From positions 1 to 52,668 of the IMG/VR virus record IMGVR_UViG_3300025886_000035: 52,668 nt of DNA; one strand, written 5' to 3'. This DNA is from a virus. Of the stretch, positions 6,990 to 52,514 are shown in pieces; position 1 is the first letter of the stretch, and every line of letters starts with the position of its first letter. The translations under genes were made by a program, and so were the position numbers. The notes under the pieces were generated by a model. It ran no database searches, was not told the DNA's origin, and saw only the letters and a list, made by a program, of their open reading frames with translations.

Positions 6990-7943
6990 CTATTTAAAAA
7001 TGTCTTGCCAGTTACCAGTAGTACTGGCTCTAGCGTATTCTGTAGAACGATTTTCGAAAAAGTTCGTATGTTCTACTGCGTTTATCATATAGTCTAACCA
7101 AGGAAGTGGATTACTTTCAGAATTGAAAATCTTCTTCATTCCTAGACCCATAAGTCTTTTGTCGGCAATATACCGAATGTATGCTTTTACTTCGGGAGCC
7201 TTTAAGTCTTTCACTTCAGCACTTCCAAAAGCAACATCAATAAATGCGTCCTCTAACTCTACCACTCTCTCGGCGGCACAGTAAATTTCATACTTTAATT
7301 CATCGTTCCATATTTCAGGGTTCTCTTGAATATAAGTTCTGAAAAGTTTTGACATTCCTTCAACGTGTAAGCTCTCATCTCGAATTGACCAAGTAACAAT
7401 CTGGCCCATATTCTTCATAAGATTGTGACGCGGAAAGTTCAATAGAATAGCAAAACTACTAAACAATTGTACTCCTTCCGTAAAGCCACTGTATACTGCT
7501 AGTGTTTTAGCAATATCTTTTTTAGTGTTCATATTAAAGTTAGTCAAGTATTCATGTTTATCGGACATCTCTTGGACTTCCATAAACATTTGATACTCTT
7601 CTTCAGGAAACCCAAGAGTTTCTAGAAGAGTAGAATATGCGTCCTGATGAACGGCTTCCATTGCTGCAAATGCAGACAACATCATTCGTACTTCAGGAGC
7701 TTTAAACGTAGGCAGATAATGCTTCGCATATCCACAGCAAACGTCTACATCACTTTGCGTGAAAAAACGAAAGATATGTCCAAGCAAACGCTTACTACTA
7801 TCATCCAAAGAACGATAATCTTTAAGGTCGTCTGCCATCGGGACTTCTTCTGGCATCCAATGAAGATGCTGTTGCGTCTTATACGCTTCATACGCCCAGT
7901 TATACTGAAACGGTTTGTAATAATTTCTTTCATCTGTAACCAT
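6990..7943 (-). CDS. nrdB: Ribonucleotide reductase class I small subunit
   Basis: 317 aa ferritin-like di-iron protein that supplies the tyrosyl radical for NrdA. The metal and radical motif EAVHQDAYS (Glu, His, radical Tyr) and the second-half ligands in WSIRDESLHVEGM are present. The C-terminus (STTGNWQDIFK) would dock into NrdA. It is four bases from nrdA and so co-translated. Together they reduce ribonucleotides to deoxynucleotides; the small glutaredoxin at 29172-29396 may be the electron donor. A second, class II enzyme lies at 50595-52514. Confidence 0.93.
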   Translation of the reverse strand: MVTDERNYYKPFQYNWAYEAYKTQQHLHWMPEEVPMADDLKDYRSLDDSSKRLLGHIFRFFTQSDVDVCCGYAKHYLPTFKAPEVRMMLSAFAAMEAVHQDAYSTLLETLGFPEEEYQMFMEVQEMSDKHEYLTNFNMNTKKDIAKTLAVYSGFTEGVQLFSSFAILLNFPRHNLMKNMGQIVTWSIRDESLHVEGMSKLFRTYIQENPEIWNDELKYEIYCAAERVVELEDAFIDVAFGSAEVKDLKAPEVKAYIRYIADKRLMGLGMKKIFNSESNPLPWLDYMINAVEHTNFFENRSTEYARASTTGNWQDIFK

Positions 7944-7946
7944 AAA

Positions 7947-23609: not shown

Positions 23610-24362
23610 TTAATTTCCTAATAATTGGTTAAGGTTAGTTGTGATAGAGACCCCACTATCTCTAGCTTTCTTGGTTTTTGAAGATTCTAGTCCACTCTCA
23701 TTCACTAGGATTGTTACTTCTCTTGTTAAGGAGGATTTCACAATATATCCCTTGCTAATGAGAACTTTCTCTGCTTCTGCTTTAGTTTTAAAGGATGTCA
23801 GTTTTCCACTAATGCAGACAACACCCTTAGGCTCAATAACAGAAACAACTTCATTTGACTCAAATGAAAAAGGTAGCCACTTGTACTCGCGGAGAAACAT
23901 GGTATTGTACCAGGTTAGCAAATTATTGCTCGCCTTAGGGCCAAGCCCCGCCTTAGTACAAGCCTCCTCGTTCAGGTCATAAATACTACTTACTACAGAA
24001 CATAACTTTGATGATGCCGATTTACCTATTAGTGGAATAGAGAAAGCGGGTAGGATTTCAGAAAGACTAACTTTCTTGGAATCTTGAATCTCTTCAAAGA
24101 GTTTTGCTGCAAGTTTTTCAGAATTAAGAGCCTCTACCATCTCACCCAAACTCAGTTCATAGATTTGAGGTATTGAAGTTATTCTGAGTTTCTGAATAGA
24201 TGATGGCCCTAGTCCCTTAATTTTCAAAGTAGAGGAAAAGTGTTCGATTAACTTATAAGTCTTAGACTCACAAGAAGTATTATAGCAGAACAACTGATCG
24301 TTTTCCCACACCAAAGGTGAAGAACAACTCGGGCAGTGTGTTGGTGCTACAATTTCTCTCAA
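23610..24362 (-). CDS. ligB: NAD-dependent DNA ligase, C-terminal half (zinc finger, HhH, BRCT)
   Basis: 250 aa from a TTG at 24362 with AGGAGA upstream; the longer frame to 24551 overlaps the promoter and the upstream gene. Four-Cys zinc finger (CPSC ... CYNTSC, residues 10-31), helix-hairpin-helix segments (IKGLGPSSIQKL, LGPKASNNLL) and a BRCT-like end (GVVCISGKLTSFKTKAEAEKVL). This is the DNA-binding half of LigA; the adenylation half is at 25067-26017. T5 also encodes its NAD-dependent ligase as two subunits. Here two genes lie between the halves. Confidence 0.85.
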   Translation of the reverse strand: MREIVAPTHCPSCSSPLVWENDQLFCYNTSCESKTYKLIEHFSSTLKIKGLGPSSIQKLRITSIPQIYELSLGEMVEALNSEKLAAKLFEEIQDSKKVSLSEILPAFSIPLIGKSASSKLCSVVSSIYDLNEEACTKAGLGPKASNNLLTWYNTMFLREYKWLPFSFESNEVVSVIEPKGVVCISGKLTSFKTKAEAEKVLISKGYIVKSSLTREVTILVNESGLESSKTKKARDSGVSITTNLNQLLGN

Positions 24363-24389
24363 AAGACTTTCTCCTACATTTGAATAGAT

Positions 24390-24418
24390 ATTATACGGGG
24401 TTTGAGTTGAAAAGTCAA
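24390..24418 (-). promoter_or_regulatory. Near-consensus sigma70 promoter for the ligase C-terminal half
   Basis: Minus strand: TTGACT at 24418-24413, 17-base spacer, TATAAT at 24395-24390. It would give a start near 24383, about 20 bases before the TTG start of the ligase fragment, letting this half be made independently of the adenylation half. Confidence 0.75.
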
Positions 24419-24421
24419 GAA

Positions 24422-24781
24422 TTATTTTTTCGGAATAGCTAAAATAATCTCCTTCTTTATTTCGAAACACTCTGTATATCCACCGAACTTTTGTTGGGGT
24501 ATATACTTGAATTGTTTGTATTCTTCGTGTAATGCTTGTTCTAGCGTCCACACATTAAAAAGTGAGTCGTGGTAAGTTCTCTGTATACGAATTTCGTAGC
24601 CATTAAACCCACGACTCCTTTTCAAAACGTCTTTCCAATTTCTTCCTGAAGCGATGCCTATCTTGAGACATTCTCGTTTCATAGTAAGTTTATTAACTAA
24701 TACTACGCAGTAGAGTACCCCTTCGCGGGTAGCTTCTTCAGGATGATTTTCAAAATAAGTAAGGTTATAAACTCCACTCAT
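24422..24781 (-). CDS. GIY-YIG-like nuclease between the two ligase halves
   Basis: 119 aa. GVLYCVVLV (residues 21-29, in the place of GIY), KIGIASGRNWKDVLKRSRG (YIG-like with conserved Arg), E81 in TLEQALHEEY and GGYTECF near the end follow the T5orf172/GIY-YIG order. Such genes are often homing endonucleases. Its position between the split ligase genes suggests that a mobile nuclease accompanied the split. The catalytic Tyr of GIY appears as LYC, so activity is uncertain. Confidence 0.65.
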   Translation of the reverse strand: MSGVYNLTYFENHPEEATREGVLYCVVLVNKLTMKRECLKIGIASGRNWKDVLKRSRGFNGYEIRIQRTYHDSLFNVWTLEQALHEEYKQFKYIPQQKFGGYTECFEIKKEIILAIPKK

Positions 24782-25074
24782 CTTATAATTTTAGGAAAAG
24801 GGATGATATTACCACTTGGTTTATCTTCTACCGAATCTGCTGACTCGGATATATAGATAATACCGTCTTCGGATTCTTCCATTCGTTCCTCGAATCCTGG
24901 GTCAAGATATGCTTCTAGAGCAGTAATCCATCCTTCCAGAATCTTGTCACGAGTTTCTTTTTTGATAGCAAAGAAATAATCATATAAGCCTGCGGCAGAT
25001 ACATAATGACTTCCATTGTCTTTCAAACCAATCCACCCAAAGATGTTTTCGTCTTCTATACTATCATCAAACAT
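24778..25074 (-). CDS. Hypothetical acidic protein
   Basis: 98 aa, strongly acidic (MFDDSIEDENIFGWIG, then EERMEESEDG), ending GNIIPFPKIIR. No recognised family. It overlaps the ligase adenylation gene by eight bases and the GIY-YIG gene by four, so all three are translated together. Aromatic N-terminal half (HYVSAAGLYDYFFAIKK) could be a small fold. Function unknown. Confidence 0.55.
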   Translation of the reverse strand: MFDDSIEDENIFGWIGLKDNGSHYVSAAGLYDYFFAIKKETRDKILEGWITALEAYLDPGFEERMEESEDGIIYISESADSVEDKPSGNIIPFPKIIR

Positions 25075-26017
25075 TTACTTCCCCTTCTATGCGTCTCACG
25101 ACTCTTGGTATAATTTCACCGGATCGAATTACTTCGACAGTACAACCTATTTCAAGGTTAAGCTCGTTAATATACCGCATATTATGTAATGTGGCACGAC
25201 CAACAGTAGCTTCTCCAATGAGCACAGGCTCTAGGATAGCAACAGGGGAAACCACACCGGATTTACCCACTTGCCAGATCACATCAAGTAGTCGCGTAAC
25301 GACACCTGGAGGTCTTTCTTTCAAAGCAAAGGCACCACGAGGGTGGTGAGCGGTGTAACCCATCTCTTCATATTTCGCATTGTTATCAACACGGAACACT
25401 AGACCATCCTGCGGGTATCCTGCCCAGTTAGACGCAAGAACAGTGTCGAAATTGTCCGAAGAGAGATTCGACATGTCTTCCGTCCACAACTTTTCCACAC
25501 GAGGCTGAATATCATAAGCTACGAATCGAACTTCTCTAGTGAGAAACTCTTCTTCGGACTTGAGATTCAGCGCACCAGAAGCATAGTTTCTAGCGTTAGG
25601 AATAGTCTCGGGGGCAACAACTTCTCCTGTAATCTGAACAACACCCTTGCGAGTAATGCTAGTAGGAACAAGATGTTTAACTTTATTCATAATATTTCTA
25701 CCCTTCTTACCATTACCCCGAGTAAGAGCCAGCACTAATTCACCATCGTAGTAGCCCAGCGAAACCGCTGCTCCATCTAACTTGGGTGTGATTACTGTTG
25801 CTCCAGTAGCGTGGTCGTAAGGAGGATGTTCTTCACCTACAAATGCTTTCTGTAAACTGTACATAGGGTACAAGTGATCGAACTCGAAGAATTCGTCAGA
25901 ATATCCTACGTCAGTATAGTTAGCATCAGCGGCAAGAACATCAAACTCAGCATCAGAAATTATGGGGTTGCCCTCATAATAAGCCTTGGCTGCTTTGGCA
26001 AGAAACATATTAGTCAT
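25067..26017 (-). CDS. ligA: NAD-dependent DNA ligase, N-terminal half (adenylation and OB domains)
   Basis: 316 aa. Part of domain Ia (YYEGNPIISDAEFDVL, SDEFFEFDHLYPMYSLQKAF), the active-site motif TPKLDG with K79 as the AMP-accepting lysine, TRGNGKKGRNI, GEVVAP, and the OB segment IGEATVGRATLHN with GCTVEVIRSGEIIPRV. It ends after the OB fold, exactly where the zinc finger would begin. Needs the second half at 23610-24362 for tight DNA binding. Closes nicks during replication. Confidence 0.9.
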   Translation of the reverse strand: MTNMFLAKAAKAYYEGNPIISDAEFDVLAADANYTDVGYSDEFFEFDHLYPMYSLQKAFVGEEHPPYDHATGATVITPKLDGAAVSLGYYDGELVLALTRGNGKKGRNIMNKVKHLVPTSITRKGVVQITGEVVAPETIPNARNYASGALNLKSEEEFLTREVRFVAYDIQPRVEKLWTEDMSNLSSDNFDTVLASNWAGYPQDGLVFRVDNNAKYEEMGYTAHHPRGAFALKERPPGVVTRLLDVIWQVGKSGVVSPVAILEPVLIGEATVGRATLHNMRYINELNLEIGCTVEVIRSGEIIPRVVRRIEGEVNV

Positions 26018-34907: not shown

Positions 34908-35346
34908 AGAAGAAGTGTTTGAGCAATTAAAGGAGGACGAAGGTGTCAAGTATGAAATCTATAATGACCATCTTGGCCTGGCTACTTTTGGTGTTGGTCA
35001 TCTTGTTATTGAGAGCGATTCGGAATTTGGTTCGCCCTTGGGTACGTCGGTATCAGAGGAGCGAGTTTGGGAAGCGTTTGAGAAAGATCTGGACACATCT
35101 ATTGATGAGTGCGAAGTTCTTTTTGGCCCCAAATGGCATGACTTTCCTGGAGAAGTTCAAGAAATTGTGGTAAACATGATGTTCAATATGGGGCGTCCTC
35201 GTTTGTCAAAGTTTAAGAACTTCTGCGCTGCACTAGAGGAAGGCGATTGGCCGAAGGCTGCTGTCGAAGGACGAGACTCTCGCTGGCATAAGCAAGTGAC
35301 GAATCGTGCGGAACGCCTCATGGTACGACTAGAAAATGTATCTTAA
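34900..35346 (+). CDS. T4-type lysozyme (endolysin)
   Basis: 148 aa glycoside hydrolase 24. The catalytic triad has T4 spacing: E14 (EDEGVKY), D23 (IYNDHLG), T29 (ATFGVGHL). Later motifs MMFNMGRPRLSKFKNF and SRWHKQVTNRAERL match the C-terminal lobe. No signal peptide, so a holin is needed to release it. Cleaves peptidoglycan MurNAc-GlcNAc bonds. Overlaps the inner spanin gene by 11 bases. Confidence 0.93.
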   Translation: MNREEVFEQLKEDEGVKYEIYNDHLGLATFGVGHLVIESDSEFGSPLGTSVSEERVWEAFEKDLDTSIDECEVLFGPKWHDFPGEVQEIVVNMMFNMGRPRLSKFKNFCAALEEGDWPKAAVEGRDSRWHKQVTNRAERLMVRLENVS

Positions 35347-35755
35347 ACTCATACTTGTTCTAGGTATAGTCGGAGCTGCTGGTGGTGCATACGCGTATCA
35401 CCAAGTCACTGTTGCAAAGTTAGAGAATGCGGTCATTCAGTTAGAAGCTAATAATCGTACTCTAAAAGAGAACAACAATGTATTACAGGCAGCGGCCGAA
35501 AACAATGCGACGAAGGTCGCGGAACTAGAGGCTCGAAGAGAGGAACAGCAGGCTCAGGTAACTGAACTCACTGCTGTAACAGCCTCTTTACAAGCGGAGA
35601 AGTCTAGGTTTATGAAAGTATTTAAAGACCACAATCTTACTCGCCTCGCAAGAGCAAAGCCTGGCTTAATTGAAAAAAGAGTAAATAAAGCCACCGCAGG
35701 TATCTTTAGAACAATAGAGGAAGAGTCAAAGGAGGTTGAAAATGCGGACGATTAG
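35336..35755 (+). CDS. Inner-membrane spanin-like protein (copy 1)
   Basis: 139 aa. N-terminal membrane anchor (MYLKLILVLGIVGAAGGAYAYHQVTV), then a long coiled coil (about 25-90: NAVIQLEANNRTLKENN...) and a charged end. Typical i-spanin (Rz-like) architecture, and it lies after lysozyme and overlaps an o-spanin-like lipoprotein. A paralog with matching anchor and AKLEANNRTLKEN is at 49702-50211. Confidence 0.7.
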   Translation: MYLKLILVLGIVGAAGGAYAYHQVTVAKLENAVIQLEANNRTLKENNNVLQAAAENNATKVAELEARREEQQAQVTELTAVTASLQAEKSRFMKVFKDHNLTRLARAKPGLIEKRVNKATAGIFRTIEEESKEVENADD

Positions 35756-36191
35756 TATAGCATCATTACTACTTGTTAGTGGATGTTCTTGGTTTGGTGG
35801 TAAAGACATGCCACCACCATATGTAATGCCGGAGCCTGTTGTAATTACTAAAATAGAGACAGTTCCTATTCGTATTTATCAGCCGCCTCTGCCTCGTGAA
35901 ATAGACATGCTCGATGTTAACTTCTGGATAATAACTGAAGAAAACTATCAGGAGAAACGAGCAGAGATTGAAAAGATGCTTGATGGACAGTTTGTAGTAT
36001 TTGCTCTGACGCCAGACGGGTACGAGAAGATGTCCGAAAATTTACAAGAGTTGCGCAGATACTTTAAAGAAACAAAAGAAATTATTCTATACTATAAAAA
36101 GGCCACTACTTATGAGACTGAAACAGAAAATCAATCACAGAATGGACAAGCTCCAGGAGATGATGGAAAGCAATCAACACCTGGAGAATGA
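35736..36191 (+). CDS. Outer-membrane spanin-like lipoprotein (copy 1)
   Basis: 151 aa. Lipoprotein signal with lipobox LLVSGC (Cys at about 17), then Pro-rich linker (MPPPYVMPEPVV), RIYQPPLPREIDML and DGQFVVFALTPDGYEKM, and a helical end. Overlaps the i-spanin-like gene by 20 bases in another frame. Larger than most Rz1 proteins, so the o-spanin call rests on lipobox and position. Paralog at 50084-50509. Confidence 0.65.
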   Translation: MKMRTISIASLLLVSGCSWFGGKDMPPPYVMPEPVVITKIETVPIRIYQPPLPREIDMLDVNFWIITEENYQEKRAEIEKMLDGQFVVFALTPDGYEKMSENLQELRRYFKETKEIILYYKKATTYETETENQSQNGQAPGDDGKQSTPGE

Positions 36192-38524: not shown

Positions 38525-38902
38525 GTGGCATACAGCGAACAGGTTATGGATCATTATGAAAACCCACGGAATGTGGGAAAACTCGACAAAGATTCCCAGA
38601 CTGTTGGCACGGGCTTAGTGGGTGCGCCTTCGTGCGGTGACGTAATGGTTCTACAGATAGACGTAGAAGATAATATTATCTTAGACGCTAAATTTAAAAC
38701 TTATGGGTGTGGAAGCGCTATTGCTTCCAGCTCACTATTAAGTGAGTGGGTAAAGGGTAAGAGCTTAGAAGAGGCGGGTAATATAAAAAATACGGACTTA
38801 GCTAATGAACTTGCACTTCCACCTGTTAAGATTCATTGTAGCGTATTAGCAGAAGATGCTATAAAAGCTGCGATAAAGGATTACAAAGAGAAACAAGTAT
38901 GA
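38525..38902 (+). CDS. iscU: IscU-type iron-sulfur cluster scaffold (copy 1)
   Basis: 125 aa, GTG start. Full IscU fold with its three ligand cysteines: C37 in GAPSCGDVM (with D39), C62 in TYGCGSAIASS, C105 in KIHCSVLAEDA; start SEQVMDHYENPRNVG is typical. It receives sulfur from a cysteine desulfurase, which is not in this window, so host IscS is the probable partner. A close paralog is at 45405-45788. Confidence 0.93.
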   Translation: MAYSEQVMDHYENPRNVGKLDKDSQTVGTGLVGAPSCGDVMVLQIDVEDNIILDAKFKTYGCGSAIASSSLLSEWVKGKSLEEAGNIKNTDLANELALPPVKIHCSVLAEDAIKAAIKDYKEKQV

Positions 38903-39893: not shown

Positions 39894-40115
39894 ATGTATG
39901 TATGTATTTGCAATAATATATCAACTAAAGACTTAGAAAGAGACCCGTCCCTTATTGATAAGGTGGGTTCAAAATGTGGTAAATGTATTGCGCCAATGGT
40001 TGCGCAGAGCTTTATAAACGGAGTTTATACATGCCAGCAGGAAAAGGTACTTACGGTAAAAAAAGAGGTCGTCCCGCCAAAAAAGGTAAGCAAAAGCTGC
40101 CAATGTCTTTCATGA
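39894..40115 (+). CDS. Bfd-like [2Fe-2S] protein
   Basis: 73 aa. MYVCICNNISTKDLE and VGSKCGKCIAPM place cysteines as C4, C6, C28 and C31, the CxC...CxxC order of bacterioferritin-associated ferredoxin domains, with a shorter middle than E. coli Bfd. A Lys-rich tail with CQCLS follows. Bfd releases iron from bacterioferritin; here it may draw on host iron stores or regulate. AGAGG precedes the ATG right after the large RNA. Confidence 0.7.
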   Translation: MYVCICNNISTKDLERDPSLIDKVGSKCGKCIAPMVAQSFINGVYTCQQEKVLTVKKEVVPPKKVSKSCQCLS

Positions 40116-40159
40116 AGAACATGAAGAAAAAGAAAAAATCAAAGAAGAAACGTAAATAA
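40031..40159 (+). CDS. Very basic small protein (42 aa)
   Basis: MPAGKGTYGKKRGRPAKKGKQKLPMSFMKNM followed by an almost pure Lys/Arg tail. About half of its residues are basic. It overlaps the Bfd-like gene by 85 bases in another frame and ends in a TAATG overlap with the next basic gene. GKKRGRPAKK recalls AT-hook or histone-tail sequences. Likely binds DNA or RNA. Confidence 0.6.
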   Translation: MPAGKGTYGKKRGRPAKKGKQKLPMSFMKNMKKKKKSKKKRK

Positions 40160-40323
40160 TGGCTGCTCGTGGATTGTATGCAAATATAAACCGCCGAAAA
40201 AAGAAGGGTACTAGTAGAACGAAGAAAAAGTCTACTATCTCGCCCAAAGCTTATTCCCTGATGAAAGCAGGGTTTAAGAAGAAGAGAAAGAAAAGTGGCA
40301 GCAAAAAAACGAAGAAGCGTTAG
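40159..40323 (+). CDS. Very basic small protein (54 aa)
   Basis: MAARGLYANINRRKKKGTSRTKKKSTISPKAYSLMKAGFKKK... This 'GLYaNIn.rk' start is widespread in marine phage genomes in my memory, without known function. Start overlaps the previous stop; the end overlaps the next basic gene by 29 bases. Candidate DNA-condensing or head-associated protein. Confidence 0.65.
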   Translation: MAARGLYANINRRKKKGTSRTKKKSTISPKAYSLMKAGFKKKRKKSGSKKTKKR

Positions 40324-40603
40324 AAAGAAAGATCCCCGCCTTAAAAGAGCAGGAGTTTCTGGTTTCAATAAACCAAAAAGAACTCCCAAGCATCCCAAAA
40401 AATCCCATGTTGTCGTAGCAAAAGCTGGCGGCAAGGTAAAAACAATTCGATTCGGTCAGCAAGGTGTCTCAGGTTCTCCCAAGAAAGCGGGTGAGTCCAA
40501 GGCAGCTGCTGCTCGTCGTCGTTCATTTAAAGCCCGTCATGCAGCTAACATCGCCAGAGGGAAGTTGTCCGCAGCGTACTGGGCCAATAAGGTGAAATGG
40601 TAA
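40295..40603 (+). CDS. Basic conserved phage protein (102 aa, DUF5872-like)
   Basis: GTG start at 40295. MAAKKRRSVRKKDPRLKRAGVSGFNKPKRTPKHP, then KTIRFGQQGVSGSPKKAGESKAAAARRRSFKARHAANIARGKLSAAYWANKVKW. The second half, with RRSFKARHAANI and AAYWANKVKW, is a well-conserved viral module I recall from marine phages. Strongly basic; a DNA-binding or internal virion role is likely but not shown. Confidence 0.7.
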   Translation: MAAKKRRSVRKKDPRLKRAGVSGFNKPKRTPKHPKKSHVVVAKAGGKVKTIRFGQQGVSGSPKKAGESKAAAARRRSFKARHAANIARGKLSAAYWANKVKW

Positions 40604-41319
40604 TGATACTAGGAATAAACGGTTTCTCTGCTACTAAAAAACGAACTGATGGGAAATTTTGGACTCATGTTCATAAGTTTGGATCGAATTCGGCAATAGG
40701 AGGATCTGCGGAAAGTATTTGGTCTGCCGGAGGTCTATATCCATGGAGCGCTTTAACTAATCCCGAAATAATTTATGTTTCTAGTTCTGATGCAGCGGAT
40801 GGTGGAAATATTACTATAGAAGGTCTGGGAGCAAGTTGGAAGACACAAAAAGAAACTGTGGATCTGGGTGGAAGCCCTTCTGAAGTTGCTACTACCCTCA
40901 CTTTTCGCAGGGTTTATAGAATGACTTATAGCGAGACAAATACTGGGGTTATTTCCGCGAAGACGGTAAGCCACGCAGGAACAGTCGTTGCACAAATTCC
41001 AGTGGGTAAAGCTCAAACATTGTTAGGGGTTTATACAGTTCCTGAAGGGTGTATTGGCTATTTGGTCTCGTATACGGCTGGCGTAGGTAAACTAGATGAT
41101 GCTCTTATAGAGCTTTATGTAAGAGAAAAAGCTACAGGGGCTTTTCGTATAAAAAGTGAGATGGATATCTATCAAAGCGTTCAGAGACAAGAATTTAGTG
41201 TACCGTTGGAATTACCCCCACGAACTGATATTGATTTTCGTGCTACAGGCAGTAGCGGAAACAGTATTTGTACTATTAATTTTGATATAGTTTTACATAA
41301 CTATTTAAGAGACCAATAA
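40603..41319 (+). CDS. Virion structural protein
   Basis: 238 aa from ATG 40603, eight bases after AAGGTG; ATG 40597 is in frame but too close to that site. Beta-rich: GSNSAIGGSAESIWSAGGLYPW, FRRVYRMTYSETNTG, VGKAQTLLGVYTVPEGCIGYLVSY, DIDFRATGSS. This pattern (viral jellyroll with 'tllg.ytVP.g.tgyl..y') fits head-decoration or fibre proteins seen in marine podo- and myoviruses. It follows the basic proteins and precedes the exported module. Confidence 0.65.
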   Translation: MILGINGFSATKKRTDGKFWTHVHKFGSNSAIGGSAESIWSAGGLYPWSALTNPEIIYVSSSDAADGGNITIEGLGASWKTQKETVDLGGSPSEVATTLTFRRVYRMTYSETNTGVISAKTVSHAGTVVAQIPVGKAQTLLGVYTVPEGCIGYLVSYTAGVGKLDDALIELYVREKATGAFRIKSEMDIYQSVQRQEFSVPLELPPRTDIDFRATGSSGNSICTINFDIVLHNYLRDQ

Positions 41320-41886
41320 ATGATAAGAATTTTACTGTTACTACTAGCCTTCCCCGTATTTGCGGAAGAAGCCCCGATTATTGAGGACAATACTATTCGT
41401 ACTGACTCTACTACTAATAGTACGGTTACTACAAGATCAGATACATCAACAACTTTAAGAGCCCCTCCTGCGTCTGCTATTACGCCTACTATCAACACTT
41501 CAAACAGCGATTTGTGTACTTTTGGAGTTGCGGGGGCTGTTCAGACGCAGATTCTGGGTATCTCTATGGGTTCTCAGATAACTGATTCAAACTGTGAGCG
41601 GTTAAAACTTTCGAAAACTCTGTATGATATGGGAATGAAAGTTGCAGCAGTATCTACACTGTGTCAGGATGAACGAGTATTCGACGCAATGCTAATGGCT
41701 GGAACTCCTTGTCCTTTCGAAGGTTTGATTGGCAATGAAGCAAAAGCAGCTTGGGCAGCAAATGAGGAACTGGAACCGTCCGTGGATGAAACGACGGAAG
41801 AAAAGGAAAAAGGACTCGGTGATGGTACTAAGACACTCATGGGTAGTGCCGGTGTTGTTAGCCTACTGCTCTTACTCGTACTCTAG
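41320..41886 (+). CDS. Exported protein with C-terminal membrane anchor
   Basis: 188 aa. Sec signal peptide MIRILLLLLAFPVFAEE, a Thr/Ser-rich low-complexity segment (DNTIRTDSTTNSTVTTRSDTS), a Cys-containing core (DLCTFGVAG ... DSNCERLKLSKTLYDMGMKVAAVSTLC ... GTPCPFEG), an acidic linker and a terminal hydrophobic stretch (AGVVSLLLLLVL). Exported proteins are rare in phages, and this one opens a run of five. Possibly envelope-anchored. No family named. Confidence 0.65.
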   Translation: MIRILLLLLAFPVFAEEAPIIEDNTIRTDSTTNSTVTTRSDTSTTLRAPPASAITPTINTSNSDLCTFGVAGAVQTQILGISMGSQITDSNCERLKLSKTLYDMGMKVAAVSTLCQDERVFDAMLMAGTPCPFEGLIGNEAKAAWAANEELEPSVDETTEEKEKGLGDGTKTLMGSAGVVSLLLLLVL

Positions 41887-42694
41887 CGAAGAGGTATACG
41901 GAACAACCACCAACGCCGCGAATATTGGGTTGAATTGGGTCATGTCTAATATCTTACCACAAGCGACAGGATTGACCGTAAACAATGTAATCTATAGATA
42001 TACCACTGAGAAAGACCCAGAAGATGATATGTTGGTTCACGTTCAAAATGAGAATGCTCAAGGAAACGGATATATCTTTAGAAGCACAGACGACTGGTCA
42101 GGTTTGCCAGGCAATACGATTAACAAAACAATTCCTGTAGGGGGTATAGGAATTGATTTTTGGGGTGATGGTTCTATCGAAGTGGAAGGCTTCGGAACAG
42201 TTTTAGATCCAGAGGTTTATTACACATATCAGTATGTTCCGTGTGATAATCCTCAGTCGGACCCAGAATGCCCAGGTTATATTGACCCGCTCACGCTAAT
42301 TCAAGAGCCTGAAATAGATACCTCGAGTGAAGAGTATATTCAGGCAGAGTTAGATCGTGAAACGAACATGAAAGCACAGAAAGAGGAAGAAGAGAAGGAA
42401 GAACGAGAGAAATTTGCTAAAGCCACTGAAGAGAAAGTAAGAGATAGTTTAGAGAAGATGTTAGGTTTATCCCTCGGAGCAAGCCTACAAGAAGCACAAG
42501 ATACATTATTGCATAACGCATTAGTGTCAACGAATTATTTGCCTAGAGGTTACTTTGGGCAAATAAAAGGGGGAGAGTATCCGGATGCAGAGATGCTGAA
42601 AGATTCTGACCTACCTGACAATGCAAATGGTCGCCGTGTAAACTTTGCGCAGCAACTTTTGCACCAAAAAATGGTTCAATCGCAGTATGATTGA
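41822..42694 (+). CDS. Exported protein with coiled-coil segment
   Basis: 290 aa from ATG 41822, chosen because it gives a signal peptide (MVLRHSWVVPVLLAYCSYSYSSEE); upstream in-frame starts give a Lys/Arg-rich head. A beta-rich core (IGLNWVMSNILPQATGLTVNNVIYRYTTEKD, GYIFRSTDDWSGLPGNTINK, GDGSIEVEGFG, YQYVPCDNPQSDPECPGY) precedes a charged coiled coil and helical end. Overlaps the previous gene by 65 bases. Homologs exist in marine phages in my recollection; function unknown. Confidence 0.65.
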   Translation: MVLRHSWVVPVLLAYCSYSYSSEEVYGTTTNAANIGLNWVMSNILPQATGLTVNNVIYRYTTEKDPEDDMLVHVQNENAQGNGYIFRSTDDWSGLPGNTINKTIPVGGIGIDFWGDGSIEVEGFGTVLDPEVYYTYQYVPCDNPQSDPECPGYIDPLTLIQEPEIDTSSEEYIQAELDRETNMKAQKEEEEKEEREKFAKATEEKVRDSLEKMLGLSLGASLQEAQDTLLHNALVSTNYLPRGYFGQIKGGEYPDAEMLKDSDLPDNANGRRVNFAQQLLHQKMVQSQYD

Positions 42695-42719
42695 CAGAGT
42701 ATAGAGGGGGAACTCTATT

Positions 42720-43208
42720 ATGAAAAAATTAGTTATTTTACTATTTTGCGCCTTTAGTGCGCAAGCGGAGGAAATGGAAGTAGTAGGGAATGTTGCTTCG
42801 AAATGTGTAGTAACTCCTGATACCGCAGGTGTATTTGGTAACCCAACATCAGATGTGTTAAGCACTGATCCTACGGACGGTGGAGTTGATCCTGTCGTTC
42901 GATTTGACGTAATTGAAGCGAGCAGCTATAAAGCTAGGATTTCGTATCCTACATCCTTTTCGGAATCACCTACATTGAATGACACTGTAGTATGGACGGG
43001 CGACGTTGCTACATCTCAAGTATCAGATACTGGCATGTCTGGGTATGACGCAGCAAAGGTTGAGTTTGATAATGTTACTGAATTCAGTTTGACCGTTGCT
43101 GGTAGCACCTGGTTCAAAACAGAATCACAAGCAGATTATGGCTACGGCAAAGCATTTCCTGGCGGCGTATATCGTGCGATAGTAAGTGCTGAATGCATCG
43201 CTATCTAA
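42720..43208 (+). CDS. Exported pilin/spore-coat-U-like protein
   Basis: 162 aa. Signal peptide MKKLVILLFCAFSAQAEE. Mature domain: VVGNVASKCVVTPDTAGVFGNP, VVRFDVIEASSYKARISYPTSFSESP, AGSTWFKTESQADYGYGKAFPGGVYRAIVSAECIA. Two cysteines near the ends could form the pilin-type disulfide, and the 'G.Y.a.V.aec' end recalls fimbrial subunit and spore coat U domains. The chaperone-like gene next to it supports this. Family is by resemblance only. Confidence 0.55.
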   Translation: MKKLVILLFCAFSAQAEEMEVVGNVASKCVVTPDTAGVFGNPTSDVLSTDPTDGGVDPVVRFDVIEASSYKARISYPTSFSESPTLNDTVVWTGDVATSQVSDTGMSGYDAAKVEFDNVTEFSLTVAGSTWFKTESQADYGYGKAFPGGVYRAIVSAECIAI

Positions 43209-43564
43209 TTTTATTACTGGTGATGAGTGGGTACGCAAGTGCCCATGAATTCACCCCAACTTATCCAAAGTTGAAAAATTCTTACGTTGAGGGTGTATTA
43301 TATACTACAATGACCCTTTTCAATATGCGAAAAGATGTAGAGTATTATGAGTTTGGTGTTTTTAATGCGGAGTGGGAGAAAGTACCCTTTGCTATGCAGC
43401 AGAAAGTTATGCGTTTCAAACACCTTGAAAAAAAGAAGGTTGACATTTACATAAGGGAGAAGGACAAGGAAGAAGTGGTTTTCATCTGTTCAAAATCAAA
43501 ATTGGTTGTAACAGGTACAGCAAAAACATCCGTATCTTCTAGGATTTGTTCAAAAGTTAAATGA
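43193..43564 (+). CDS. Exported fimbrial-chaperone-like protein
   Basis: 123 aa. Signal peptide MHRYLILLLVMSGYASAHEF. The remainder (KLKNSYVEGVLYTTMTLFNMRKDVEYYEFGVFNAEWEKVPF ... KKKVDIYIREKDKEEVVFICSKS) has the strand order of the N-terminal Ig-like domain of PapD-type periplasmic chaperones, but the second domain is missing. Overlaps the pilin-like gene by 16 bases, so chaperone-subunit pairing is plausible. Tentative. Confidence 0.5.
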   Translation: MHRYLILLLVMSGYASAHEFTPTYPKLKNSYVEGVLYTTMTLFNMRKDVEYYEFGVFNAEWEKVPFAMQQKVMRFKHLEKKKVDIYIREKDKEEVVFICSKSKLVVTGTAKTSVSSRICSKVK

Positions 43565-43989
43565 GATTTATATTATTAATGCTAGTGTCAGCTTACGCAA
43601 TGGCGGACTCTAGTTCTTTGAATTTAAATTTACCTAGCACTCCGGGTTCTTATGCGAGTGATAGAATAAGAACAAATGGCAACGTCGAGTGTTCCATGGC
43701 GATTGGCGGAAGCGTGAATTTAGAGTTTGGTGTAGTCGGAGTTCTAAATCAGAATGGGCCCTACACTAGCAATATAGGGAGCTACTCAGAAGACTACGAT
43801 GAGGAAGGTTTAGTAAAAGATGTTGGAGTGTATGCGAAGATTATCATACCACTCAATGCACCGAAAACGAGATTAGATTGTAATCAGCTTTATAAATTGG
43901 AGCTGACAAGACAGAGAATAGAACTACAAAAATTACAGCAAGAGGTAAATAACCTAAGAGCATTAAAATTCGAGGACGATGATGGATAA
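43561..43989 (+). CDS. Exported protein with C-terminal coiled coil
   Basis: 142 aa. Signal peptide MRFILLMLVSAYAMADSSS; mature start LNLNLPSTPGSYASDRIRTNGNVECSMAIGGSVNLEFGVVG suggests a small beta domain with Cys pairing (second Cys in TRLDCNQLYKL); it ends in a helix (LTRQRIELQKLQQEVNNLRALK). The order 'beta domain plus heptads' could mediate oligomers in the periplasm. Fourth consecutive overlapping exported gene of the pilin/chaperone set. Confidence 0.6.
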   Translation: MRFILLMLVSAYAMADSSSLNLNLPSTPGSYASDRIRTNGNVECSMAIGGSVNLEFGVVGVLNQNGPYTSNIGSYSEDYDEEGLVKDVGVYAKIIIPLNAPKTRLDCNQLYKLELTRQRIELQKLQQEVNNLRALKFEDDDG

Positions 43990-44398
43990 AGTAGAAGCGG
44001 TTGCTAAAGTAAACAACGTATTTGAATATCAGTACGATAGTGATCAGTATCAAGTTGCTGACTATTGGCGTGTACTTGATATGAGTCAGGATAAAGACCA
44101 AGGAGATTGTGAAGATTATGCACTTACTGTAGGCTGGATGCTTGCAGGGCAGAGTCGTATGAAGTTTCTTTGGATGATTCTCACAAAAAAGATTAAGATT
44201 TGCTTTATTAGTTATGTGGATGGTGGTCATGCAGTACTAGAATACGAAGGATTATTGGTCGACAACTGGAAGAAAGAGTGGACTCCTCGTAGCACATATG
44301 AAAAAGATTACGCACAGTATAAGTGGGAATATAAATTTTACTATAACCCTCTAGTTGTAGTAAAGAAACTCATTCAAGGTAAGTTCTGGAAAAAATAA
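43979..44398 (+). CDS. LapG-like transglutaminase-type cysteine peptidase
   Basis: 139 aa. QGDCEDYAL (C44), GGHAVLEYEG (H84) and LLVDNW (D95) give the Cys-His-Asp triad in the order of bacterial transglutaminase-like cysteine peptidases (BTLCP/LapG, COG3672). LapG cuts a large adhesin from the cell surface; here the target might be a host adhesin or the phage exported proteins next door. No signal peptide is seen. Overlaps the exported gene by 11 bases. Confidence 0.72.
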   Translation: MMDKVEAVAKVNNVFEYQYDSDQYQVADYWRVLDMSQDKDQGDCEDYALTVGWMLAGQSRMKFLWMILTKKIKICFISYVDGGHAVLEYEGLLVDNWKKEWTPRSTYEKDYAQYKWEYKFYYNPLVVVKKLIQGKFWKK

Positions 44399-44877
44399 TG
44401 GCAGAGTTCGAATTTGCGGGTACAACATTTCGTGGTGGCAAGATGGCAGTTATATTGACTGCACTCTCTACACTGGGTGGTGGTGCATGGGGTGCGTTTG
44501 AGTTCTATAAAGACTACATGGACATGAAAGAGATCATTGCTAACATAGACACTGACGCAATAGAAGTAAGAAACAATGAGATAGAAGTAAAACTTGATAA
44601 CGTGTTGATGACTGTGGATGAAGCCATAGACTACTCTCGCAGTATCAAGAATGATCTAAGAGACGATTTCAACAGAATGGAAAAGAATGTTGATCGGATT
44701 GAAGATCAAAACAGAGAGATGCAAGATGATGTCAGAGCAATGATTGACAAAGCATCCGAACGTTTTGACACAAAGAGAGAGAGTTTACAAACTGACACTG
44801 AACTGAAGATCAATGCTCTTGAAGATCGCCTTAATAAAAAAATACAGAATGTGCTTGATAATCCTTTAACAGACTAA
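44398..44877 (+). CDS. Membrane-anchored coiled-coil protein
   Basis: 159 aa. N-terminal hydrophobic segment (KMAVILTALSTLGGGAWGAF, about 15-34), then long heptad-patterned helices to the end. Similar anchor-plus-coil proteins occur in T4-like marine phages as I recall. It could be a holin-type or tail-associated membrane protein; holin function is only a guess, although no better holin candidate exists in this stretch. Confidence 0.6.
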   Translation: MAEFEFAGTTFRGGKMAVILTALSTLGGGAWGAFEFYKDYMDMKEIIANIDTDAIEVRNNEIEVKLDNVLMTVDEAIDYSRSIKNDLRDDFNRMEKNVDRIEDQNREMQDDVRAMIDKASERFDTKRESLQTDTELKINALEDRLNKKIQNVLDNPLTD

Positions 44878-44887: not shown

Positions 44888-45106
44888 ATGAGAGTTAAAG
44901 TAACATTTACGAATACAACATCGATGTTTGGTACACTGCCGCATGATGATTACACAGGCACTTTAAATGCAGAACATTTTTTGCCTTGGGTTATGAACGA
45001 TGAAAGAAATTTTATTCCCTTCATACAACCCAACGGAAAGGAAATTCTGTTGAGCAAGAACGCAATCGCATATATAGTAGAAGACACAGTAGAAGACATA
45101 TATTGA
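44888..45106 (+). CDS. Small hypothetical protein
   Basis: 72 aa behind AGGAGAGAGAC. MRVKVTFTNTTSMFGTLPHDDYTGTLNAEHFLPWVMNDERNFIPF..., an SH3-like small beta protein. It ends in a TTGA overlap with IscA, so it belongs to the iron-sulfur pair that follows. Unknown function. Confidence 0.5.
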   Translation: MRVKVTFTNTTSMFGTLPHDDYTGTLNAEHFLPWVMNDERNFIPFIQPNGKEILLSKNAIAYIVEDTVEDIY

Positions 45107-45390
45107 ACATAACTGATAAAGCGAGGGAACGCCTAGACTACTACTTAGACGAACGAGGTAAAGGCGGTGGTGTGTATGTTACAATTAAAACAACTGGCTG
45201 TTCTGGATATGCATATCATCTAGAGTTTGCTAATGATCAGGAAAGTATACTGGAGGTTGATGCTAAATATCAACACATGTTCGAAGGAGTGACTCTGGAT
45301 TATATTAGGCGGGGTCTTAACGAAGGATTTGAATTTGACAACCCAAACGAGAAAGCGAAATGTGGTTGTGGAGAATCCTTTACGGTTTAA
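45103..45390 (+). CDS. iscA: IscA/SufA-type iron-sulfur carrier
   Basis: 95 aa, TTG start at 45103 overlapping the previous stop. The three cluster cysteines are present: C33 in KTTGCSGYAY, C87 and C89 in KCGCGESF. A-type carriers pass clusters from IscU to target proteins. The IscU gene starts 15 bases downstream, so both are made together. Confidence 0.92.
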   Translation: MNITDKARERLDYYLDERGKGGGVYVTIKTTGCSGYAYHLEFANDQESILEVDAKYQHMFEGVTLDYIRRGLNEGFEFDNPNEKAKCGCGESFTV

Positions 45391-45404: not shown

Positions 45405-45788
45405 ATGGCATATTCTGAACAAGTTTTAGATCATTACGAAAACCCACGCAATGTGGGAAAAATGGATGAGACTAATGACAACGTAGGCACTGGTATGGTG
45501 GGTGCACCGGCGTGTGGTGATGTGATGAGATTGCAAATTGAGGTGAATGATGATGGAATTATCAAAGATGCTAAATTTAAAACCTACGGATGCGGAAGTG
45601 CTATCGCGTCTTCCTCATTGCTTACCGAATGGGTTAAAGGTCGCAGTCTTGATGAAGCTGGGAGTATTACCAACTCCGAAATTGCAGACGAACTCGCGCT
45701 CCCACCCGTCAAAATCCATTGTAGTGTCCTTGCAGAAGATGCGATCAAAGCTGCGATAAACAATTACCGCAATAAACACGCCGTATAA
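45405..45788 (+). CDS. iscU: IscU-type iron-sulfur cluster scaffold (copy 2)
   Basis: 127 aa. Cysteines C37, C63 and C106 in GAPACGDVM, YGCGSAIASS and KIHCSVLAEDA; nearly the same protein as copy 1 over most of its length, with differences between the conserved blocks. Directly after IscA. Why one phage would keep two IscU genes is unclear; either differential expression or a composite sequence. Confidence 0.93.
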   Translation: MAYSEQVLDHYENPRNVGKMDETNDNVGTGMVGAPACGDVMRLQIEVNDDGIIKDAKFKTYGCGSAIASSSLLTEWVKGRSLDEAGSITNSEIADELALPPVKIHCSVLAEDAIKAAINNYRNKHAV

Positions 45789-46592: not shown

Positions 46593-48338
46593 GTGAGATG
46601 TGTTGTGGCACCAAATCCGAAAAGACCTACAGAAGAAAACTATGCGGCGTTTTACGGTGGCCATGATGCGTCTCTTTGCATCTATAATAAACCCACAGAC
46701 ACTTTTCATACCATAGAGTTAGAAAAACTTGTTGGTGTTAAACACGCTCGCTGGCCAGCTCGACCAGACCCAGGATTTTATACTAGAGACTTCTATCGCG
46801 GGGATCCTAGGTCGATGGTTTTTGCCTTAAAGCTTGAAATGGAGCGTTTAGGCCTAAGAGCCGAGTTTAGACATGTTGTAATAGGCTCTACTTGGGGAGA
46901 AGTTAGTGATGCTTATACACAATGGATGCCTCTGGATCTACTCCTTCAAGAATTCAAAGTAGATAATTTTTCATATCATAAAGGGCATCATATGGCCCAC
47001 GCTTGGTGTGCAGTAATGCAATCGCCTTATAGCCGAGGTGTGTGGGTAGTGACTGACGGTGGTGGTGATGATGCTTACTTTAGTGTAGGTGTTTATGATC
47101 GTACCGCCAATAAATTTAAACGTATTAATTTCACACAACTAGAAGAACACAATCTAGGTGGGTGGTATGAAAGAAAGGCTGGGTTCTATTGTGATTCGTT
47201 AACACAGAAAACACCTATGGTTAATGACTTGTCTGGTAAAGTCATGGGTGCTGCGGGGTTTGGTATACCTGGAACTGAGTTAAAACCTAAACGATGGCAC
47301 GAATTAACAGATCTTGGACCACACCCTTTAGCCTTGGCCGCTAGATCGTATATTGGTGAAAATAATAGAACTAGATTTGCAAATAAAGAACACTTGACTT
47401 GGCAAGAAGAGTGTAACATATGTTATACGATTCAGAATGAGCTAGAAAAAGAGTTTATGCACTCATTATATGATCTGATGCCTGATATAGAACAAAATTT
47501 ATCTGTCTATGGTAATAATCTAATTATGTCGGGTGGTGTATCATTAAACATATTAAATAATAAGAAGATACAAGAAGAATTAGGCGTTAACGTCTGGGTA
47601 CCGCCTAATCCAGCGGATAATGGATTATCATTTGGTATGCTGATGAAATGGTTAGTAGAAAATAGACCTAATCTAGTCGCTTACAAGTGGAATGATCCCA
47701 ACGCCAAAGTATATGATCTTACGTTCTCAGGTCCTAGTATACGAGATTTAACTGATATTAACCGATATAAAGATCTTTATAAAACAACTCACTCAGAAAT
47801 AACATTGGATGAGTTAGTAACATGTATTAAAGATGGTGAGATTATTGCTCTGATGCAAGGTAATTCAGAGGTTGGATTTAGATCTTTGGGCGCTCGCTCA
47901 ATACTGTGTGACGCCAGTATAACAGGAATAAAAGATAAAGTCAACCTAACTAAACGAAGAGAGGCTTATCGCCCGTTTGCACCTGTGTGCTTATGGAAAG
48001 ATGCAAGCCAATATTTTGAAGTAGGCGAACATAATATATACAAGCATATGAACATGGCGGTTATGGTAAAAGAAGAGTGGCGAGAAAAACTGTCATCGAT
48101 AACGCATGTAGATAATACTGCGAGATTACAGGCGGTTGAAGAGCAAGACGGTTTTATGTTTGACTTACTGACCAAGCATGGTGGTGTCTTACTTAACACT
48201 TCATTGAATCTCAGTGGTAAACCTATCTGTAACTCGTTATATGAGGCTCTCCACATACTAGAACGGTCCGATATAGATAAGTTGGTGGTAAGTGATTTAA
48301 ACAATAAACTAGTGTGTTTTGAAAAGTATAAAGAATGA
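46593..48338 (+). CDS. Carbamoyltransferase (NodU/CmcH family)
   Basis: 581 aa, GTG start. N-terminal Kae1-like part: YGGHDASLCIY, YHKGHHMAHAWCAVMQSP (metal-binding His pair), WVVTDGGGDD, MSGGVSLNILNNKKI and PPNPADNGLSFG. C-terminal YrdC-like part: MQGNSEVGFRSLGARSILCDAS and NLTKRREAYRPFAP. Transfers carbamoyl from carbamoyl phosphate and ATP to a hydroxyl group, of a sugar in known bacterial enzymes. Present in several T4-like marine phages as I recall. Target unknown. Confidence 0.9.
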   Translation: MRCVVAPNPKRPTEENYAAFYGGHDASLCIYNKPTDTFHTIELEKLVGVKHARWPARPDPGFYTRDFYRGDPRSMVFALKLEMERLGLRAEFRHVVIGSTWGEVSDAYTQWMPLDLLLQEFKVDNFSYHKGHHMAHAWCAVMQSPYSRGVWVVTDGGGDDAYFSVGVYDRTANKFKRINFTQLEEHNLGGWYERKAGFYCDSLTQKTPMVNDLSGKVMGAAGFGIPGTELKPKRWHELTDLGPHPLALAARSYIGENNRTRFANKEHLTWQEECNICYTIQNELEKEFMHSLYDLMPDIEQNLSVYGNNLIMSGGVSLNILNNKKIQEELGVNVWVPPNPADNGLSFGMLMKWLVENRPNLVAYKWNDPNAKVYDLTFSGPSIRDLTDINRYKDLYKTTHSEITLDELVTCIKDGEIIALMQGNSEVGFRSLGARSILCDASITGIKDKVNLTKRREAYRPFAPVCLWKDASQYFEVGEHNIYKHMNMAVMVKEEWREKLSSITHVDNTARLQAVEEQDGFMFDLLTKHGGVLLNTSLNLSGKPICNSLYEALHILERSDIDKLVVSDLNNKLVCFEKYKE

Positions 48339-49448: not shown

Positions 49449-49702
49449 TGATTTCATTTAAAACCTTTACAGAAGAGCGAGACTACGCAAAAGAATACGC
49501 CAACTATCACTCTCGCCCAGACCAAGTAGAACGTAGAACAGCACGTAATGCTGCGAGAAGGAAACTGCGAGGGCGCAAGGATCTTACTGATGAGATGGAT
49601 GTGCATCATAAAGATAATGACCCATTGAACAACGATCCTAAGAACTTAGCGATTGTTACACAGCACTATAATAGACGAGAGCCCAGACTCAGGGATAAAT
49701 AA
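49448..49702 (+). CDS. HNH endonuclease
   Basis: 84 aa. Arg-rich head (RPDQVERRTARNAARRKLRGRKDL) and a compact HNH: MDVHHKDNDPLNNDPKNLAIVTQHYNRR (HH...N...H). Probably nicks or cuts DNA; small free-standing HNH proteins in phages are often homing nucleases, sometimes packaging helpers. Sits just before the second spanin pair and might have carried that region in. Confidence 0.8.
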   Translation: MISFKTFTEERDYAKEYANYHSRPDQVERRTARNAARRKLRGRKDLTDEMDVHHKDNDPLNNDPKNLAIVTQHYNRREPRLRDK

Positions 49703-50211
49703 TGTTTAAAATGTATTTGATAGTGGCTTTTATTGGGGCTATCGGTGGTGGTTACGCTTATCATCAAGTTACAGTCTCTAAGTTTGAAACAGGTATTGCC
49801 AAACTAGAAGCAAACAACCGAACTCTCAAAGAAAACCAAGTGCAGTTGGATATTGCCATCAACACGGCAGAAGCATCGCTCAAAGCGGCAGAAGAAAACG
49901 CTAAGAAATCTGAAGCAGCAATGAGTGCCCTCACTTCTCGCAACCAAGAGTTGAATCGTGAGAAGCAAACCTACTTGAAGATCTTCAAGGATCACAACCT
50001 TACCCGTCTTGCTCGCGCCAAACCTGGCATGATTGAGAAACGAATAAATAATGGAACACAGAAAGTGTTTGAGGCATTAGAAAATGATACGAAAGAACTT
50101 ATGGATATTGATGATACCGATGCTGGCGAGTTGCCAGATGCTCCCAAGACTGGAGTGGGGTCCGAAACCGATAGTGGTTCAACCAGAACCACAGATAGTA
50201 ACGGTAACTGA
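49702..50211 (+). CDS. Inner-membrane spanin-like protein (copy 2)
   Basis: 169 aa. Membrane anchor MFKMYLIVAFIGAIGGGYAYHQVTV, coiled coil (FETGIAKLEANNRTLKEN ... LNREKQTYLKIFKDHNLTRLARAKPG), then an acidic Thr/Ser-rich tail that copy 1 lacks. The FKDHNLTRLARAKPG block is shared with copy 1. It overlaps the lipoprotein gene by 128 bases in another frame, the embedded Rz/Rz1-style arrangement. Confidence 0.7.
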   Translation: MFKMYLIVAFIGAIGGGYAYHQVTVSKFETGIAKLEANNRTLKENQVQLDIAINTAEASLKAAEENAKKSEAAMSALTSRNQELNREKQTYLKIFKDHNLTRLARAKPGMIEKRINNGTQKVFEALENDTKELMDIDDTDAGELPDAPKTGVGSETDSGSTRTTDSNGN

Positions 50212-50594: not shown

Positions 50595-52514
50595 ATGCCC
50601 AGTAATTATCTACCCACCAGTTACCAAGAATTTATCCACCTGTCACGTTACTCAAGGTGGTTACCAGAAGAAGGGAGGCGAGAAACGTGGGAAGAAACAA
50701 TCGGGCGTTACTTTGATTTTTTCACCGAACATCTCTGGGATACGTGTGAATACAGGCTACCTGCAAAAGTCCGCAACGAATTAGAAGAAGCAGTACTGAC
50801 TCAGAAGGTCATGCCATCTATGCGGTGTCTAATGACTGCGGGTGAAGCACTCAAGCGCGAGAACATCGCTGGTTATAACTGTTCATACATTGCAGTTGAC
50901 AAACCTTCATCGTTTGATGAGATCCTCTATGTGCTGATGAACGGTACTGGTGTTGGATTCTCGGTAGAACGACAACACATCTCATTATTGCCTGTTGTAG
51001 CAGATGAGTTTCACAGTACCGATACCACTATCGTTGTTGGAGACAGCAAACTCGCTTGGGCAAAAGCAATGAAAGAACTTGTTGGTCTGTTGTATGCGGG
51101 GCAAGTACCTGCATGGGATATGAGCAAAGTTCGTGCAGCAGGAGAACCGCTAAAGACTTTTGGTGGTCGTGCGTCTGGTCCACAGCCATTGGTCGATCTC
51201 TTTCAATTCTGTGTTGAGACTTTCAAGAGTGCTGCCGGTCGTAAGTTGACTTCAGTAGAGTGTCACGATATTGTCTGTAAGATTGCAGAGGTTGTCGTAG
51301 TGGGTGGTGTTCGACGTTCTGCGTTGATCTCACTGTCTAACCTGTCAGATGATCGTATGCGACATGCTAAAGCAGGGCAGTGGTGGAATGACTACGGGCA
51401 CAGGGCACTAGCAAATAACAGTGCGGCATACACAGAGAAGCCTGATATCGGTATCTTCATGGACGAGTGGAAAGCACTGTATGACTCCAAGTCTGGTGAA
51501 CGTGGTATTTTCAATCGTCAGTCTGCAAATCTAATTTCAGAAAAGTCTGGTCGCCGCGAGGTGGGTAACCATGAGTTTGGTACCAACCCTTGTTCGGAGA
51601 TCATCCTTCGCTCTCGTGAATTCTGTAACCTATCAGAGGTTGTGGTTCGTGCGAGTGACAACCGCGAGACGCTACTTGAGAAAGTCCGTCTCGCAACTAT
51701 TCTAGGAACGTTCCAATCTACTCTCGTGAACTTCAAGTATGTCTCTAAGGGATGGGTCAAGAACTGTGAAGAGGAACGTTTGCTTGGTGTGTCTATGACT
51801 GGTATCATGGACAACAAGTACACCAATGGTAAGTTGGGTGATCTACCCTCTCTGTTAGAAGAACTCAAAGCAGAAGCGGTCAAGGTGAACAAAGAACTTG
51901 CTACTAAACTTGGAATCAACCAATCTGTAGCAATCACCTGTGTTAAACCCTCTGGTACCGTCTCACAGCTCGTTGACGCCGCTTCTGGCATACATGCTCG
52001 ACATAACCCCTACTATATTCGTACTGTACGCGGAGACAAGAAAGATCCACTAACCAACTTCATGATTGATAAGGGCTTCCCTGCTGAAGACGATGCGATG
52101 AATCCATCACAGACTGTGGTATTTTCTTTCCCTGTTAAAGTAGACAAGGGTGCTGTATTCCGCACTGATATGACTGCTATTGAACAGTTAGAGATGTGGT
52201 TGATCTACCAGAAGCACTGGTGCGAACATAAGCCTTCTGTTACTATCTCTGTCAAAGAGCATGAGTGGATGGACGTAGGCGCATGGACGTATAATAACTT
52301 TGACTACATGAGTGGTGTATCATTCTTGCCTTTCAGTGATCACACGTACAAGCAAGCACCTTATCAGGATACTGATGAAGCAGGATACAAAGAGTTGCTG
52401 AAGATTATGCCGAAAGATGTAAACTGGGCAGATCTGAGCCAGTATGAAATGACTGATATGACGATTGGTTCTCAGGAACTTGCGTGTGCCGCAGGCAACT
52501 GTGAGATACAATAA
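50595..52514 (+). CDS. nrdJ: Class II (adenosylcobalamin-dependent) ribonucleotide reductase
   Basis: 639 aa monomeric ribonucleoside-triphosphate reductase type. MPSMRCLMTAG, IAGYNCSY (redox Cys near 96), NGTGVGFSVERQ, NPCSEIILRSREFCNLSEVV (redox and radical Cys), KPSGTVSQLVDAASGIHARH, and C-terminal shuttle ELACAAGNC. Works without a second subunit but needs vitamin B12 from the host. No cobalamin genes in the window. It seems redundant with NrdAB at 6990-9710 and has visibly more GC-rich codon choice than the genes on the minus arm. Confidence 0.93.
   Translation: MPSNYLPTSYQEFIHLSRYSRWLPEEGRRETWEETIGRYFDFFTEHLWDTCEYRLPAKVRNELEEAVLTQKVMPSMRCLMTAGEALKRENIAGYNCSYIAVDKPSSFDEILYVLMNGTGVGFSVERQHISLLPVVADEFHSTDTTIVVGDSKLAWAKAMKELVGLLYAGQVPAWDMSKVRAAGEPLKTFGGRASGPQPLVDLFQFCVETFKSAAGRKLTSVECHDIVCKIAEVVVVGGVRRSALISLSNLSDDRMRHAKAGQWWNDYGHRALANNSAAYTEKPDIGIFMDEWKALYDSKSGERGIFNRQSANLISEKSGRREVGNHEFGTNPCSEIILRSREFCNLSEVVVRASDNRETLLEKVRLATILGTFQSTLVNFKYVSKGWVKNCEEERLLGVSMTGIMDNKYTNGKLGDLPSLLEELKAEAVKVNKELATKLGINQSVAITCVKPSGTVSQLVDAASGIHARHNPYYIRTVRGDKKDPLTNFMIDKGFPAEDDAMNPSQTVVFSFPVKVDKGAVFRTDMTAIEQLEMWLIYQKHWCEHKPSVTISVKEHEWMDVGAWTYNNFDYMSGVSFLPFSDHTYKQAPYQDTDEAGYKELLKIMPKDVNWADLSQYEMTDMTIGSQELACAAGNCEIQ

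Follow-up and report, generated by a model that had tools for sequence, protein, structure and literature searches.

A phage gene cassette with pilin-like and chaperone-like proteins, tentatively an usher-less relative of chaperone-usher systems

Introduction

Work on chaperone-usher (CU) pili has treated them as systems of three parts that include an outer-membrane pore. In phage T5, superinfection is excluded by a phage-encoded lipoprotein, Llp, which occupies the FhuA receptor (PMC9586334). In the part of the literature covered, we found no description of the cassette reported here, whether under phage-encoded pilin/chaperone systems or under usher-independent ones, and the papers searched contained no carrier-phage proteome.

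Here, we analyze a run of genes in IMGVR_UViG_3300025886_000035, a complete linear IMG/VR virus record of 52.7 kb. The window, i.e., the whole stretch of DNA analyzed (52,668 nt), spans all of this record. Three of the genes, C, D, and E, belong to a type of set that is carried by hundreds of marine and Vibrio phages and by some soil bacteria.

Results

A cassette of exported proteins in a marine-type phage

By gene content, the window belongs to a tailed phage of marine type, with genes for DNA polymerase, primase, a DnaB-like helicase, PhoH, RNR, and a tail fiber, and no integrase was found among the window proteins scanned. The same genome has two IscU-like genes and one IscA/HesB-like gene (38525-38902, 45405-45788, and 45103-45390; named by eye); IscU copies flank the cassette in differing relatives. 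It also holds a NodU-like carbamoyltransferase gene (46593-48338; phrog_1601, PF16861/PF02543), three tandem genes for small, very basic, protamine-like proteins (39983-40603; 58, 54, and 102 aa, the last being phrog_7595), two genes that make up a split NAD-dependent DNA ligase (23610-24551 and 25067-26017), two ribonucleotide reductase systems (6990-9710 and 50595-52514; a class I pair and a single-gene RNR, phrog_367), and Rz-like spanin genes at two separate sites (35336-36191 and 49702-50211; phrog_739 twice, phrog_812).

The cassette starts with A, the first gene of an A-B-C-D-E-G unit (Table 1). Adjacent genes overlap at A/B, C/D (16 nt), D/E (4 nt), and E/F, and 25 nt separate B from C. 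An earlier note on this DNA had counted four consecutive overlapping genes with signal peptides; there are five (A to E), their N termini are indeed signal-like, and the overlaps hold except at B/C. We scored N termini with a simple hydropathy/A-x-A test, which was positive for distinct relatives of A (79/92), B (88/92), C (80/83), D (83/84), and E (82/89), compared with 17/97 background ORFs of the window; for F, it was positive in 0/13. Chance ORFs are ruled out because the cassette proteins are conserved in relatives down to 44-60% identity. When the window proteins were scanned, C, D, and E matched no informative family in Pfam, PHROGs, or NCBIfam, and searching the sequences of the PDB gave no match. 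The A family is common to pelagiphages, roseophage CRP-207, and JWAlpha. B gave no match in the phage collection (tblastn) and is found alongside A and C in related loci. Pelagiphages carry A and B without C-D-E, B being placed there by position and eye with no significant match.

Table 1. Cassette genes, the predicted donor strand, and the upstream flanking gene in the window
Feature	Position	Strand	Description
Upstream virion/fiber-like gene	40597..41319	+	phrog_8198; cyanophage relatives annotated "virion"/"tail fiber"; variable flank
A	41320..41886	+	Signal-peptide protein with hydrophobic C-terminal segment; phrog_20531
B	~41822..42694	+	Signal-peptide protein; apparently a beta-rich region and a charged coiled-coil-like region (by eye)
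C	42720..43208	+	Exported protein, predicted pilin fold (AF2, Foldseek)
Predicted N-terminal donor strand of mature C, to first Cys (EEMEVVGNVASKC)	42768..42806	+	Model and motif
D	43193..43564	+	Predicted single-domain PapD/FimC-like periplasmic chaperone (AF2, Foldseek, HHalign)
E	43561..43989	+	Third exported protein, phrog_37374; invariant Cys pair, helical-looking C terminus
F	43979..44398	+	Putative cysteine peptidase resembling BTLCP/LapG, no signal peptide; optional insertion
G	44398..44877	+	N-terminal TM segment and coiled coil (by eye)

Conservation of the unit

We retrieved ~176 related loci, many of them redundant and some the same contig fetched repeatedly. The commonest order was A-B-C-D-E-G (106 of the ~176 loci); F was inserted after E in 30 and lay upstream of A in 10, and G followed E in 61/61 distinct loci. 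Genes upstream of A-B-C-D-E-G vary widely among relatives, and the phrog_8198 gene is not part of the conserved unit. The idea that phages of the window's group need an upstream fiber gene as a partner was rejected because the flanks vary. In IMG/VR, D relatives are encoded by at least 356 matching stretches and C relatives by at least 204, and some of the contigs with C or D relatives are 100-160 kb long. Matches to the E family also occur in four Klebsiella phage records and one Stenotrophomonas phage record of the phage collection.

The earlier note had included in the set a LapG-like protease with a C44-H84-D95 triad. The residues are as described, and with them F keeps the C-H-D arrangement of LapG/BTLCP (PF06035); it differs in scoring below the Pfam cut-off for Peptidase_C93/BTLCP (E = 2.5e-5; 24.5 bits against 27) and far below the NCBIfam LapG cut-off, and its membership did not hold up. 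F is missing from most loci, lies elsewhere in some, and has no signal peptide (0/13), whereas LapG acts in the periplasm; a LapG-like protease is therefore unsupported as a member of the set. F is thus not a periplasmic BTLCP protease with a signal peptide, and LapG-type adhesin release was rejected on the same grounds. We judge F to be a passenger outside the module.

Predicted folds of C and D

Structure prediction followed by Foldseek searching for pilin and PapD folds, a check proposed in the earlier note, led from D to CU chaperones and, modestly, from C to CU pilins. For the AlphaFold2 (AF2) model of D (pLDDT 92.9, pTM 0.82; alignment of 64 relatives), about 35 best PDB matches were all CU chaperones (FaeE, PapD, FimC, DraB, SafB, and Caf1M; TM to query at most 0.71). 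D resembles the chaperone N-domains, with one of the two PapD domains present, and two invariant Cys lie close to its last two strands. In HHalign, the whole D family scored 87-88% against the PapD_N set and 2% against the fimbrial set; window-type D alone scored 8% against PapD_N, the family signal coming from bacterial and Vibrio members. At the level of predicted fold, D is a PapD-like chaperone, in keeping with its first description as a one-domain PapD-type protein. In rhizobial D proteins, the motif TPMR has an Arg that aligns (HHalign) with an Arg in the first strand of chaperones that we take to be PapD Arg8; the position holds Arg in most rhizobial D proteins and Tyr in the phage D proteins shown. 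Because Pfam PapD_N scored in none of the 11 trio genomes apart from G613, we regard D as a single-domain family too diverged for Pfam to detect. A copper-type N-terminal His in D (mature HxxTPTYP) was rejected since it is not general (Vibrio D proteins and most rhizobial ones do not have it), and DUF4402, seen in 2/120 genomes and below cut-off in both, was not used as a source family.

The AF2 model of C (pLDDT 94.3, pTM 0.84; alignment of 59 relatives) has CU pilins as its best PDB matches, namely CfaB (E = 9e-4), the PapG pilin domain, FimF, CS17, CsuA/B, and HdaB. These scores are modest (TM about 0.4-0.5), and further beta-sandwich proteins are mixed in and rank close behind. The C family scored 36-38% against the fimbrial set and 1% against PapD_N in HHalign, and window-type C sequences alone scored 1% against the fimbrial set. 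Conserved Cys lie near both termini. Confidence in the model is lowest over the N terminus of mature C, a stretch outside the folded strands. A motif of the form hydrophobic-x-G-x-hydrophobic-x3-C is present in 59/59 distinct window-type C proteins (0.8 expected in shuffles), and with x4-C spacing it is present in 5/17 sampled fimbrial subunits. The idea that C is a fimbrial subunit with terminal cysteines is supported for the cysteines and, by the modest model matches, for the fold; profile support is weak, and Pfam and NCBIfam miss C. Strand donation is a prediction from the modest fold match and the motif.

Might C and D be unrelated secreted beta-sandwich proteins, similar to pilins and chaperones in general fold and without donor-strand chemistry? 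Ig-like folds are common, and the matches of C are modest. The chaperone-specific Foldseek ranking of D, its PapD_N profile match with low cross-controls, the donor-strand motif in C, and a C-D adjacency conserved in phages and bacteria all argue against this explanation, to which we give a small chance. On the models, a pilin-like fold for C and a chaperone-like fold for D are highly probable, and it is probable, to a lesser degree, that the two proteins pair by donor-strand complementation.

The trio in Vibrio phages

Homologous trios are encoded by Vibrio phage pVp-1 (Demerecviridae; gp077-079) and podovirus 252E42.2 (p33-35). They have the window's gene order and an identical 16-nt C/D overlap, at 28% (C) and 27% (D) against window-type members by tblastn, and 179 Vibrio phage records contain D relatives. 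In 5/5 unrelated Vibrio phages examined (111, 59, 83, 79, and 59 kb), the trio lies downstream of a large fiber-type protein, which is phrog_10818 in the two that were scanned, and a small lipoprotein-like gene then follows the trio in at least 4/5. The fiber neighbor recurs at every Vibrio locus seen, but is not constant in the window's group.

This position behind fiber-type genes would suit a virion component, i.e., exported C, with or without E, that is assembled by D and joins the particles at lysis as an Ig-like decoration aiding adsorption. In K251 g3, moreover, the trio block is flanked by the genes for the major head protein and the head-tail adaptor, and the Peru-2 capsid bears Ig-like vertex decorations (PMC13320782); the Peru-2 protein was set aside as a relative and serves as an analogy only. 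Assembly of tailed phages is cytoplasmic, however, and the signal-like N termini of C, D, and E argue against incorporation before lysis. We regard a virion role as unlikely; the site of action is probably the envelope of the infected cell.

Bacterial operons and the usher

C-D-E is present in 6/297 Hyphomicrobiales genomes, and no usher was found in any of these six. E occurs in 10/398 genomes of a Pseudomonadota sample, where D adjoins it in all except one (G513), usually together with C; across phages and at most of the bacterial loci, E is found together with C and D. Three C-D-E triplets stand in tandem in Nitratireductor soli (1286-6375 of the retrieved locus). Four other rhizobia-like genomes have C-D-E-C', in which C', a second copy of C, begins immediately after the signal peptide and has no N-terminal extension, so that C' appears to lack a donor strand, as a tip subunit of a CU pilus would. 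At the E match on a Mesorhizobium plasmid, four genes annotated "hypothetical" lie in a row, and FJ970_RS31865-31880 of Mesorhizobium sp. B2-1-8 is a candidate C-D-E-C' operon. We did not find usher PF00577 in eight trio genomes; an usher is encoded elsewhere in three others (G002, G355, and G613), and G499 has a sub-threshold match. For the phages, where the conserved genes of the cassette were considered, none of these is an usher.

The bacterial operons bear on a further possibility, that A-B-C-D-E-G destabilizes the envelope late in infection as an aid to lysis. G is a TM/coiled-coil protein, HTVC023P and CRP-207 have their A-family gene close to one for an M15 peptidase or putative lysozyme, and the pVp-1 trio is directly upstream of holin and endolysin. 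Yet the Rz-like spanin genes sit elsewhere in the window, no role in lysis is known for a pilin/chaperone pair, and the C-D-E operon is carried by bacterial genomes among what we take to be ordinary metabolic genes, all of which makes a lysis aid improbable. That C and D act as decoys, capping or poisoning CU fibers of the host and so removing a receptor for other phages, would fit the likeness of D to FimC/PapD and the existence of FimI-like terminator subunits, but is very improbable given trios in bacteria without a detected usher, where there is nothing to poison.

Discussion

C, D, and E keep their order, are conserved, and carry signal-like N termini, and this gene anatomy supports an usher-less chaperone-subunit module. 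Our preferred reading, which we hold tentatively, is that C-D-E is a minimal, usher-less relative of the chaperone-subunit system of CU pili and has an envelope-modifying product. The C, D, and E made by the phage would leave the cytoplasm by their Sec signals, and single-domain D would complete the fold of pilin-like C in the periplasm. The free N-terminal strand of C might then complement another C or a cap, yielding a small donor-strand complex or short fiber, which E, with its helical-looking C terminus, may anchor or position in the envelope; in the phage group of the window, A, B, and G would share this task. Progeny and rival phages would fail to re-adsorb to the altered surface of the dying host.

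The Vibrio trio, beside fiber-type and small lipoprotein-like genes, recalls T5 Llp and therefore favors envelope remodeling against re-adsorption. By that analogy, superinfection exclusion or receptor blocking is the specific function that we favor, though at less than even odds. Lysogenic conversion is unlikely and the module would act within one infection, because carriers such as pVp-1 are lytic. A broader proposal, which we consider unlikely as a whole, is that the usher-independent donor-strand trio of chaperone, subunit, and E is undescribed so far, is common to lytic phages and bacterial chromosomes, forms a structure on the surface with no usher, and was captured by phages for remodeling the host envelope in lytic infection. 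An usher-less chaperone-subunit pair with E, found in lytic phages and usher-negative bacteria, suggests that donor-strand assembly may not be confined to the usher pathway and that pilus-type parts may serve some lytic phages in remodeling the host surface. Three uncharacterized PHROGs (25895, 25455, and 37374) thereby gain functional hypotheses and testable partners.

How does the cassette compare with the systems described so far? Like T5 Llp, it is a phage product destined for export, with the host envelope as its proposed site of action, and in Vibrio phages it adjoins fiber-type genes and a small lipoprotein-like gene. Unlike Llp, which is one lipoprotein, it has at least three pilin/chaperone-type proteins. 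From CU pili (PapD/FimC, FaeE, DraB, and Caf1M; FimA/PapA, CfaB, and CsuA/B), it differs in having no usher, a one-domain chaperone, and a third protein, E, in its occurrence in several kinds of phage, and in the spacing of the motif (x3-C in C, x4-C in the sampled fimbrial subunits that have it). With the same pili, it shares a Sec-exported subunit of predicted pilin fold with an N-terminal strand motif, an Ig-like chaperone encoded as the partner gene of the subunit, and, in the rhizobia-like operons, a tip-like second subunit without a donor strand.
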